From positions 1 to 24,291 of IMG/VR virus record IMGVR_UViG_3300025138_004320: a DNA stretch of 24,291 bases; one strand, written 5' to 3'. The notes below the pieces were generated by a model. That model was not told the origin of the DNA and made no database searches. It saw only the letters and a list, made by a program, of their open reading frames with translations. Numbering within the stretch: the first letter of the stretch is position 1; each line of letters begins with the position of its first letter. Shown here piece after piece: positions 12,323-24,237 of the stretch. The translations under genes and the position numbers were made by a program. Source of the stretch: a virus.

Positions 12323-12695
12323 GTCTATAAATCGAATGTATACTCTCTACCCAATAGTCTGATAAAGTTTCTACACACGAAATTCCCCCTTCTTCGATAT
12401 GTAACATTTTAGATGGCATTAAGTACATCCCAAAATGTATTACTAAATTTGTTTTTTCTGACTTAAATGCTATTACATCATAATCTTTGGCGTTTGTCAA
12501 ACTTACTTTTTTAGCACATTGAGCTGCCCAATTATCTATACTAGTTGTAGTAAATTGTTTAATCCAATGCTTAGATAGGGGATAATCAGGCAAAGAAAAT
12601 TGTAAGTTTAATTCGTTGTGATAAAAACTTTTAATTAGTGTTATACAATTTATATTATTGTAGGAATGTGGCAGACTTATATACTTTCGTACCAT
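12306..12695 (-). CDS. NlpC/P60-like tail peptidase, first of a tandem pair
   Basis: A 129-residue protein that aligns along its length with the next gene. Around the presumed nucleophile, NINCITLIKSFYHNELNLQF (C17) matches GIDCFNLCKLVYLNELEIDF of the neighbour at nine of 20 positions. Later, YDVIAFKSEKTN...IHFGMYL (H87) matches YDIITMSLGSTN...NHCALYV. H99 in KMLHIEEGG is a plausible third catalytic residue. The fold is therefore NlpC/P60 and the pair are diverged paralogues. GGAG eight bases before the ATG supports the start, and the gene overlaps the radical SAM gene by 19 bases. Having two such proteins is unusual: one may be catalytic and the other structural, or they may act on different bonds. 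I cannot tell which from sequence alone. Confidence 0.78.
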   Translation of the reverse strand: MVRKYISLPHSYNNINCITLIKSFYHNELNLQFSLPDYPLSKHWIKQFTTTSIDNWAAQCAKKVSLTNAKDYDVIAFKSEKTNLVIHFGMYLMPSKMLHIEEGGISCVETLSDYWVESIHSIYRHDSLV

Positions 12696-13888
12696 GAAGC
12701 AAACTCCGGAAAAGTTTTAGTAAAAGATTCATTACGTAGTTTGTCTAATCTTTCAGTTTCTTTTTTAAATATAGGAAGTAAAAAAGAGTCATCAGCACTG
12801 ACCATAAAAGATAACCAACTTTTAATCTGTTCTATATCATTTGATGTTAATATTGTTTTATACTCTTGAATAAACTTTTTATATATACTAAGAACTTGTT
12901 GTTTAGCTTCTTTAGGTAAACAAGTAACTCTTTGAAAAGAAGGTTCTATTTGAGTTGAGCCATAAAAATCAAAGCCATTACGTTTACACCACAATATAAG
13001 ATCGGGCATAGAAGTTATACTATAAATATTTATAACAGAACTAACTGTTTGTATATGTTCTTTAAACAAAATAGCATGTTTTTCAAATTTAGACCAGGAT
13101 AATCCTTTTCTAGAATACTCTACTCGGCTTCCATATCCTTCAACACTAGGCCAGATAGATACTTTTTTAAAATTACCCCATAAGTGGGTAAGATCATATT
13201 TTTTAAATTTAGAATAACTTAGATTTGTATTATAACTAACATGAATATTTTTTGCATAACCTGAGTCTATAAGTACATTAAGCATTTTATAATGACCTTC
13301 TTGTATAAAAGGTTCACCTCCTGCAAAATATACCTCTTCTAAATTAGGGATATACTGAGGTACATCTTTCCAAAAATTCTCATTATCTGTAAAATAATCT
13401 AAGGTCTTAGACCATTTAGGATCATTGCTATCTTTATACCAGCTTGTAGAAGCAGCAGGGCCGCACATTCTACACTTAAAATTACACAAGTTACCAAATC
13501 TAATATCTAAATATGTAGGAGTACTATCCACACTACCATCGCTATTAGTTTTATCTTGTATATAAGCATATTTTTGAAAGCGTTGATTTACTTGTAATCT
13601 ATTACTCCCACTACCTTGTTTTTCTTTATCATAACAAGCATGTACACATTCAGTAGGTATTTTATTTTTTAAAAAATTAAGACGTACTTGCTTATAATCT
13701 AAACTATTCCATATGCTATCTAAAGATTGTTTATGTGTACCCATAATTTTAGTATTAGGTACAAACTCAGCATGACAACACAGATAAAAATTGCCGCTTA
13801 AACTACCAAAAATATGCATCCAAGGAAGTATACAACCTTTTATATTATTGTTTGGGGATTGTTCGTCCTGTTGCAGGGAAGCCTCCAA
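12677..13888 (-). CDS. Radical SAM protein with N-terminal twitch/SPASM-like region, in the tail-tip cassette
   Basis: Up to 403 residues. The N-terminus has an auxiliary Fe-S-type cysteine set (C19 in CILPWMHI, C37-C38 in FYLCCHAEF, C81 and C85 in CVHACYDKE). The radical SAM core follows, with C135-x3-C139-x2-C142 (GNLCNFKCRMCG) and an intact GGEP motif (residues 190-193, YFAGGEPFI) that contacts the methionine of SAM. This resembles the 'twitch domain' radical SAM proteins found in marine phages, whose substrates are unknown. The start is unclear: the frame opens with TTG at 13886-13888, giving a 44-base overlap with the gpL-like gene. There is no ATG before residue 24, and the GGAGG lying over this TTG would serve a start slightly further downstream. 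It sits between the Fe-S tail-tip gene and the NlpC genes, overlapping both, so it is expressed with the tail-tip proteins. Confidence 0.88.
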   Translation of the reverse strand: MEASLQQDEQSPNNNIKGCILPWMHIFGSLSGNFYLCCHAEFVPNTKIMGTHKQSLDSIWNSLDYKQVRLNFLKNKIPTECVHACYDKEKQGSGSNRLQVNQRFQKYAYIQDKTNSDGSVDSTPTYLDIRFGNLCNFKCRMCGPAASTSWYKDSNDPKWSKTLDYFTDNENFWKDVPQYIPNLEEVYFAGGEPFIQEGHYKMLNVLIDSGYAKNIHVSYNTNLSYSKFKKYDLTHLWGNFKKVSIWPSVEGYGSRVEYSRKGLSWSKFEKHAILFKEHIQTVSSVINIYSITSMPDLILWCKRNGFDFYGSTQIEPSFQRVTCLPKEAKQQVLSIYKKFIQEYKTILTSNDIEQIKSWLSFMVSADDSFLLPIFKKETERLDKLRNESFTKTFPEFASWYESI

Positions 13889-23324: not shown

Positions 23325-24094
23325 TTACTTACGTGACTTTGTCTGTTGTGCATAATATTTACCTAGAATAGACTCAGCCTCTTTTAGTAGTTCAAAAACC
23401 TCACGTCTACTCTCAACTTGATATATATCCATAACAGCACTAAGACCAGAGTAATCTTTTCCTAACCAGGTACCATTCATTCCCTCCCAATTATCGGGCA
23501 AAGCATTAAGAATAGTCAGTGCTTGTTGACACTCTAAAGATAAGTTAGTACCATCTTGAGGTAATTCTTCCTCTTTTGGTTCCCAACCCATCTGTTCACA
23601 CATCAATATATATTGATCTGCTGTTAAACCACCACCTCCAAAAGAACTTTGAAGGTAGTCAGTTAGTTTTTTGTGTCAGTTTCTTTCTTTTTTACTGAAA
23701 ACTGTTCAAAATCATTCATGGTATCTGTAACAAACTGATCAAAAATTGTTGAATTTTTCAAAAGTTCAATTGCATCTTCCATAGAATACTCTACTTCTTC
23801 TGTGGCGTCCATTGTTGAAATGTCAACAGGCAAAAGAACCGGTAAATGCTTTACCTTAAGACCTTTCCATCCCGCAATAGATTTTTCTGCATAATTTTCA
23901 AGAAATTTTTCATTGTCAACTTCTTCTTCACGTTGACGAGTTCGCTTATTAAATTTATAAGTTAGACTCTTATTACGAATTTTCATTAGATCTTCGCGCG
24001 TTAAATAACGAAGGTGAATTTCAAAACCTTCAATATCAGGAAACTCAACCCAAGTTGCTGTTTCTTTGGCAATTAAGCCTTTAATTTTACTCAT
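23325..24094 (-). CDS. Tail assembly chaperone GT, made by -1 ribosomal frameshift
   Basis: The longer chaperone is a fusion: 143 codons of frame G (24094 to 23666), then a one-base backward slip on the heptamer at 23666-23672, then 113 codons (LTDYLQSSFGGGGLTADQYI and onward) to the TAA at 23325-23327, about 256 residues in all. The second frame is open only from just before the slip site and has no good start of its own; its first possible codon is a TTG at 23606 without a ribosome binding site. The T part (QYIMMCEQMGWEPKEEELP...) resembles T domains of other phages, which recruit the tail-tube protein. By analogy with lambda G/GT, a few percent of ribosomes make GT, and both products coat the tape measure during assembly and are absent from the virion. 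Confidence 0.9.
23631..23659 (-). promoter_or_regulatory. Frameshift-stimulating hairpin
   Basis: Six bases after the slippery heptamer the message can fold ACUACCUUC (23651-23659) against GGAGGUGGU (23631-23639). That gives a nine-pair stem with two or three G-U wobbles and an 11-base loop (23640-23650). A spacer of five to nine bases before a stem is the standard arrangement for a -1 frameshift stimulator. The GGAGGUGG arm also encodes the Gly run of the T part. Confidence 0.6.
23663..24094 (-). CDS. Tail assembly chaperone G (unshifted product)
   Basis: A 143-residue soluble protein, charged at its C-terminus (FSVKKKETDTKN), lying between the tail-tube gene and the tape measure. It has the usual size and position of gpG-like tail assembly chaperones. 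The ATG at 24092-24094 has a strong GAGGGG ribosome binding site seven bases upstream (24102-24107). Translation stops at TAA 23663-23665, immediately after the slippery heptamer. A 143-base structured leader precedes it, which may set its level low compared with the major tail protein upstream on the same message. By family knowledge it binds the tape measure and keeps it soluble until the tube polymerises around it. Confidence 0.88.
   Translation of the reverse strand: MSKIKGLIAKETATWVEFPDIEGFEIHLRYLTREDLMKIRNKSLTYKFNKRTRQREEEVDNEKFLENYAEKSIAGWKGLKVKHLPVLLPVDISTMDATEEVEYSMEDAIELLKNSTIFDQFVTDTMNDFEQFSVKKKETDTKN
23666..23672 (-). promoter_or_regulatory. -1 frameshift slippery heptamer A AAA AAC
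   Basis: On the minus strand the last codons of G read ACA AAA AAC TAA, giving the canonical X XXY YYZ heptamer A AAA AAC in the correct phase. Slipping back one base places ribosomes in the T frame with CTA as the next codon. The G stop codon follows at once, which is common at such sites and may add a pause. Confidence 0.92.
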
Positions 24095-24101
24095 AGTTTT
24101 T

Positions 24102-24107
24102 CCCCTC
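24102..24107 (-). promoter_or_regulatory. Ribosome binding site of chaperone G, possibly sequestered
   Basis: GAGGGG seven bases before the ATG of G. It is complementary to the CCCCTC of the pseudoknot strand at 24152-24162, so it could be masked when that strand is not paired with its own partner at 24207-24217. Confidence 0.7.
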
Positions 24108-24120
24108 TAGGATAATAAAC

Positions 24121-24217
24121 GAACACCCACTACGTATCTGCTTGTCTTTGGTGAGGGGGAACCTAGACTTGCAAGTAGTGGGTGTTCTTCTGGTTAATAA
24201 TGTGGTGTTCCCCCTCA
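24121..24217 (-). promoter_or_regulatory. Leader with interlocked inverted repeats: predicted H-type RNA pseudoknot
   Basis: Within the 143-base gap between the tail-tube stop and the G start, two perfect inverted repeats alternate. In transcript order: stem 1a TGAGGGGGAAC (24207-24217), stem 2a GAACACCCACTAC (24175-24187), stem 1b GTTCCCCCTCA (24152-24162), stem 2b GTAGTGGGTGTTC (24121-24133). Stem 1 has 11 pairs and stem 2 has 13, all Watson-Crick. Connecting loops are 19 bases (24188-24206), 12 bases (24163-24174) and 18 bases (24134-24151), long enough for both stems to form at once. The GC-rich arms stand out in an AT-rich genome. It starts 20 bases after the tail-tube stop and ends 26 bases before the G start, so it is best read as a cis-acting RNA controlling G/GT or protecting the tail-tube message. 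A DNA-level role is not excluded. Confidence 0.75.
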
Positions 24218-24237
24218 GAAACACATTAATTTTTTAA

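Follow-up and report, generated by a model that had tools for sequence, protein, structure and literature searches.

The junction between the major tail protein gene and the tail assembly chaperone gene (G) in a large group of uncultivated aquatic T5-like phages carries a dedicated, strongly conserved RNA. From aligned relatives, we conclude that the architecture common to the group is two hairpins with complementary loops, namely H0, which is short and lies on the 5' side, and P2, which is long and interrupted. By its sequence and predicted structure this is a new RNA family, and the analysis yields a precise structural model of it along with a covariance model able to find its members. The element probably determines the output of the genes downstream of it and would give a testable handle on how unequal amounts of product are made from one phage operon.

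The sequence analyzed is a 24.3-kb IMG/VR viral fragment (the window), the minus strand of which carries a siphovirus tail module; all long genes in the window lie on that strand. The intergenic space, read on the minus strand, runs from the major tail protein stop codon (24240-24238) to the ATG of G at 24094. The window holds just the last 17 residues of the major tail protein, and the gene was identified through full-length homologues in the relatives L005 and L297, which match phrog_3575, major tail protein (E 1e-44 and 8e-46, respectively). An earlier sequence-only reading of this DNA had named the neighbors as tail-tube and chaperone genes, in agreement with phrog_3575 in the relatives and with phrog_313 for G. 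The Shine-Dalgarno sequence of G occurs in relatives as GAGAGG, GAGGA, and GAGGGA, with GAGGGG in many. G itself ends in ...ACA AAA AAC TAA (23663-23674, minus strand), which places a canonical -1 slippery heptamer, A AAA AAC, immediately ahead of the stop codon, with the GT frame behind it. Since the terminal K-N residues of G are invariant across 16 homologues, the G-GT frameshift is probably conserved. Two genes for radical SAM proteins also lie within the tail module (757-1746 and 12677-13888, minus strand; phrog_21308 and phrog_14086). Coordinates of the features at the junction are collected in the table.

Table. Features of the junction between the major tail protein gene and G, in window coordinates.
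Feature	Position	Strand	Basis or remark
Major tail (tube) protein stop codon	24238..24240	-	Minus-strand translation; gene runs past window end
Hairpin H0, GUGUUUC-[UGAGGG]-GGAACAC	24205..24224	-	Minimum-energy fold, covariation
H0 loop UGAGGG, putative 5' kissing partner, core of repeat A	24212..24217	-	98.7% of cells pair with P2 loop
A/U-rich linker, variable length, ends ACCAGAA	24188..24204	-	Alignments of relatives
Long interrupted hairpin P2 (contains B:B')	24121..24187	-	Predicted -30.9 kcal/mol; present in 113/113 leaders
P2a 5' arm = repeat B, GAACACCCACUAC	24175..24187	-	13/13 pairs changed on both sides, 99.1% of cells paired
P2b 5' arm UUGC	24171..24174	-	98.8% of cells paired, 3/4 pairs changed on both sides
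P2c 5' strands (GUC, GG)	24162..24168	-	92.8-96.8% of cells paired, changes on both sides
P2 apical loop UUCCCCCUCA	24152..24161	-	CCCUCA (24157-24152) = putative 3' kissing partner
P2c 3' strands (CC, GAC)	24144..24151	-	Covariation with 5' strands
P2b 3' arm GCAG, then conserved GAU-type asymmetric bulge ending 24134	24138..24141	-	Alignment
P2a 3' arm = repeat B', GUAGUGGGUGUUC	24121..24133	-	Covariation with 5' arm
U-rich tail GUUUAUUAU after P2, terminator-like	24112..24120	-	U fraction in relatives
Shine-Dalgarno-like GAGGGGA of G	24101..24107	-	Sequence
Gene G, tail assembly chaperone, 143 aa	23663..24094	-	phrog_313, E 7e-14

The element was originally noticed as two perfect inverted repeats, and these are present as described, one of 13 nt (24121-24133/24175-24187) and one of 11 nt (24152-24162/24207-24217), interleaved as A-B-A'-B'; in minus-strand RNA order, the loops joining them measure 19, 12, and 18 nt. 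Their occurrence by chance had been called very unlikely, which is borne out by 20,000 shuffles of the 150-nt leader that preserved its dinucleotide content: perfect inverted repeats reached at least 11 nt in 0.4% of shuffles and at least 13 nt in 0.035%, and two interleaved 8-mers appeared in 0.4%. For folding energy, the z-score is -3.85 on the sense (minus) strand, with 0/200 shuffles equally good, and -2.46 on the antisense strand. An RNA from the plus strand was rejected on account of this weaker z-score and the minus-strand location of all long genes. The conserved element exceeds the originally described coordinates through the addition of H0, the 5' arm of which (24224-24218) lies outside them. 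P2 totals approximately 22 bp and consists of stacked helices with an asymmetric 3' internal loop; its basal helix P2a reaches 14 bp in some relatives. Each P2a arm contains the palindrome GGTAGCTACC in the leaders of L318, L297, and L332, and the arms in this clade could therefore form hairpins of their own or dimerize.

A search with the G protein gave 80 close viral loci, a pattern built from the RNA alone gave at least 119 stretches, and the diverged G of L275 used as query gave 73 loci, many of which are new clades at 53-66% identity to L275 G. Out of 277 collected sequences, 274 contain G, and the other 3 are short or truncated contigs without a G match. Among 116 distinct leaders, GAGGGG ... 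CCCCUC is correctly placed directly upstream of G in all 113 that come from uncultivated relatives (G 53-100% identical); the 3 leaders without it belong to T5-like isolates. Two scans of divergent clades by nucleotide sequence, in which G was not used, gave 27 matches, and all 27 lie 45-69 nt upstream of a G gene.

A covariance-model search had been proposed as a check in the sequence-only reading. Model R1, built from 12 close sequences, finds the leaders of other clades (E 1e-26 to 0.01), with no match in five T5-like isolates and with member L330 missed. Model R2 recovers the held-out members L330 and L373 and finds the element once, and only once, in every one of 14 phage records (14/14), which range up to 117 kb, always upstream of G, with no copy in the T5-like isolates L196, L197, and L342-L344. 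The nearest isolates are Demerecviridae, and the distant T5-like isolates, with G identity of 33-39%, are without the element; in the five that were inspected, the major tail protein gene is separated from G by another gene, and before G there is an overlap or a gap of 2 nt. Relatives with the same gene order and no element, which had been named as evidence that would count against a conserved RNA, were not found in this group, and in every relative examined the element occurs nowhere but at the junction of the major tail protein gene with G.

Two scaffolds of the SAR86 MAG REDSEA-S09_B4, L275 and L276, carry tail genes of this phage group. Across 203 SAR86-order and 369 same-class genomes, matches were limited to phage scaffold L275 and one chance match, L377, which was rejected as a member as it is without both the kissing loops and G; the 203 SAR86-order genomes held no other copies of the RNA besides the MAG scaffold. 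All members are uncultivated, and the binned phage scaffolds are a weak hint of SAR86 as a possible host.

Covariation among the aligned relatives shows both hairpins. In 63 diverse sequences there are compensatory changes in 29/30 pairs (8/8 pairs of H0 and 21/22 of P2 changed on both sides), with 97.3% of cells paired compared with at most 44% for slid partners, and the covariation score of this alignment is 0.716 versus 0.266 when shuffled and at most 0.132 for slid structures. In the 12-sequence seed, P2a pairs form in 100% of cells, with 8/13 pairs changed on both sides. Since the 63-sequence alignment was fitted to the covariance model, we added a model-free test in which the arms of 41 nonredundant leaders were cut at sequence anchors and each leader's own arms were compared with swapped arms over 20,000 permutations, common descent being left uncorrected. 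Own and swapped arms scored 8.05 versus 4.83 for H0, 12.76 versus 8.28 for the basal P2 stem, 5.98 versus 3.99 for the apical P2 stem, and 9.46 versus 8.39 for A:A', and in each case 0/20,000 permutations, which ignore kinship, reached the observed value. The sequence-only reading was thus right to hold that this is a structured RNA, and the uncompensated arm mutations that would have spoken against it were sought in the relatives, where the arms instead mutate with compensation. G-U pairs are tolerated and mismatches are rare, which suggests conservation at the level of RNA. Two other sources of conservation were rejected. A conserved peptide is incompatible with loop lengths that vary by non-multiples of three and with arms that change in compensation. 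As for a promoter acting at the DNA level, a TATAAT-like box was seen in the U-tract of L314 and in no other clade, and the pairing pattern points to RNA. In the L314 clade, this promoter-like site (TGGATA...TATAAT, L314 1955-1983) overlaps the P2 3' arm and the U-tract.

How the two hairpins relate to each other can be addressed through their loops. RNAfold on the window alone gives H0 and P2 as both the minimum-energy and the centroid structure, with predicted energies of -7.8 for H0 and -30.9 for the full P2, leaving the loops UGAGGG and CCCUCA free to form a 6-bp duplex of about -8.6. These 6 loop-loop pairs are complementary in 98.7% of cells. The loops show one double change, U-A to C-G (L311 and L312), and one mismatch, C-A (L330), and are otherwise nearly invariant, so that the 6-bp core, which hardly varies, gives little covariation. 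Wherever a leader contains a G4 run, it also contains a C4 run (correlation 0.31, p 0.03). The nearly invariant complementarity, together with the one double change, suggests that the two loops probably kiss.

The sequence-only reading had instead described a perfect H-type pseudoknot, consisting of exactly the 11-bp A:A' and 13-bp B:B' helices with no H0. Its two interleaved perfect helices are real and B:B' covaries, and A:A' extends to 10-13 bp in 18 of the 41 nonredundant leaders; alignment positions 19-95 and 20-93 carry 22 double changes. In the window, the 11-bp helix would gain -20.7 but would cost H0 and much of the inner part of P2 (the basal stem alone is -19.7). Such a structure also leaves out H0, a covarying hairpin with a 3' arm in common with A. 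Outside its loop core of 6-7 bp, A:A' is paired in 83% of cells, some double changes among them, and fails in 16.8% versus 2.7% for H0 and P2; the extension is missing in whole clades, A:A' ending at 7-9 bp in the groups of L318, L305, and L278 and in others like them. These data are better fitted by two hairpins with complementary loops, and we regard the exact H-type pseudoknot as the least probable of the readings weighed here. Some clades, that of the window among them, may nevertheless also adopt an extended H-type state, with H-type and H0-P2 forms being alternative states of the same RNA.

The site of the element fits a role in setting the ratio of major tail protein to chaperone. Tailed phages need tail-tube subunits in far greater numbers than chaperones and tape measures. 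The most likely mechanism is an elaborate form of intercistronic attenuator or barrier. We tentatively propose that this cis-acting RNA keeps major tail protein mRNA in excess over chaperone mRNA as a leaky terminator and/or a 3' barrier. P2 and the U-rich tail would form a leaky internal terminator behind the major tail protein gene, and/or P2 would shield the message of the major tail protein from 3'-5' nucleases; part of transcription would read through to G, GT, and the tape measure gene, and the kiss between H0 and P2 would lock the nascent RNA into its fold or set when that fold forms. The single copy per record (14/14), always before G, is consistent with this proposal, as are the predicted P2 folding energies across relatives (-25 to -36 kcal/mol) and the precedent of internal terminators in ABC-importer operons (PMC9045158). 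The 8 nt after P2 have a mean U fraction of 0.67 versus 0.35 in the linker, with at least 5 U in 31/41 nonredundant leaders, and U5-U7 directly follows the GC-rich P2 base in the more diverged clades (L275, L278, L279, L285, L290, L297, L317, L318, L329, and L332). P2 ends 17-36 nt before the ATG of G and need not block initiation there, leaving the ribosome-binding site free.

The earlier statement that no U-tract follows stem 2 holds in part. The tail is interrupted in the window (GUUUAUUAU) and some lineages are without one, but 5/8 nt after B' are U in the window and several other clades have U5-U7. At most 3 U occur in these 8 nt in L252, L272, and L087; the L252/L263/L087 lineages have the complete fold without a U-rich tail, and the tail is weak in L272. 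Compared with textbook terminators, P2 also has more interruptions and a longer apical loop, and a consensus terminator scan did not report it. A simple terminator would have no need of H0, of invariant loops, or of conserved internal loops in P2. Because a few lineages have lost the U-rich tail yet kept the fold, termination cannot be the sole conserved role, and a nuclease barrier, a protein site, or both may be involved besides it. Even as no more than a partial terminator, the element would be unusually elaborate.

Conservation of unpaired positions beyond the needs of pairing (UGAGGG, CCCCUCA, the GAU bulge, and the CUUGC region), along with the single copy strictly linked to G, would also fit an autoregulatory or sensory leader. 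The H0-P2 core of such a leader would be recognized by a phage tail protein (G or the major tail protein), by a host factor, or by a ligand, and binding would govern how G and its downstream genes are translated or transcribed. T4 gp32 and ribosomal-protein leaders are models for such regulation. The G ribosome-binding site is without conserved sequestration, however, the match between the P2 loop and the Shine-Dalgarno sequence falling to 4 nt in the L318 group, and we consider such a leader unlikely. Somewhat doubtful too is the broader notion of a new class of phage regulatory RNA, the kissing hairpins of which would be a sensor or switch that ties how much tail chaperone and tape measure is expressed to the amount of a tail protein or to translation of the upstream gene.

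A direct anti-Shine-Dalgarno switch would have the C-rich P2 loop (A') pair with either H0/A or the GAGGGG of G, toggling translation. The predicted energy of A' with the Shine-Dalgarno region in the window is -13.3 kcal/mol versus -8.2 for the 16S anti-SD, and GAGGGG is found in many relatives. The complementary run is just 4 nt in L318, L317, L332, L297, and L329, however, while the match between the H0 and P2 loops persists there. Judged by these alignments, sequestration of the G ribosome-binding site is not conserved, and there is very little to recommend the switch.

P2 could alternatively be a processing site, with RNase III or another host nuclease cutting it to separate the messages as in T7. 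The intercistronic RNase III hairpins of T7 are long, irregular, and placed between phage operon genes, as is P2 with its approximately 22 bp and asymmetric 3' internal loop. Such cleavage leaves H0 and the loop complementarity unexplained, and processing is an improbable main role. We know of no conserved partner hairpin or loop complementarity in the T7 hairpins. Two hairpins with conserved loops inside a long operon further recall processive antiterminators of the put or EAR type, in which the nascent RNA binds RNA polymerase and aids its passage through, here, the long tail operon (for putRNA, PMC9378689). The position of the element in mid-operon, strictly before G, the lack of an Rfam match, and a U-rich tail suggestive of termination rather than its suppression make this very improbable.

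An Rfam comparison, likewise proposed at the outset, returned no Rfam 15 model (of 4227, among them riboswitches and phage RNAs) at gathering score at the element in the window and 8 diverse relatives; the matches there are weak miRNA or sRNA only. The literature searched, which included few subscription papers, contains no description of an RNA at this junction. Among known systems, the tisB standby pseudoknot is also a structured region upstream of a translation start, but it serves a sequestered ribosome-binding site, whereas sequestration of the G site is not conserved (PMC7708055). The manA and wcaG RNAs are, like the element, structured conserved RNAs known mainly from marine metagenomes and from phages or cyanophages; they go with metabolic and photosynthesis genes (PMC2864571), and the element is without an Rfam match. 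HK022 putRNA, of approximately 70 nt, resembles it in anatomy, which is all that was compared, being a cis-acting phage RNA of two stem-loops. It lies behind early promoters and acts on terminators at least 10 kb away, while the element is in mid-operon before G and has a U-rich tail; the paper on put mentions neither kissing nor a pseudoknot (PMC9378689). Clostridial ABC-importer operons are the nearest parallel to the leaky terminator and barrier that we prefer. In those operons, stoichiometry is set by internal terminators with long stems and few U that follow the gene of the abundant subunit. Termination at them ranges over 21-96%, and the stability of the upstream mRNA likewise changes with their folding energy (PMC9045158). 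These terminators are single hairpins, whereas the element, a putative terminator, has a second hairpin, complementary loops, and internal loops, all deeply conserved. The two share a strong, GC-rich long stem with unpaired stretches, a tail of reduced U content, and a position behind the gene of the product needed in excess (PMC9045158).
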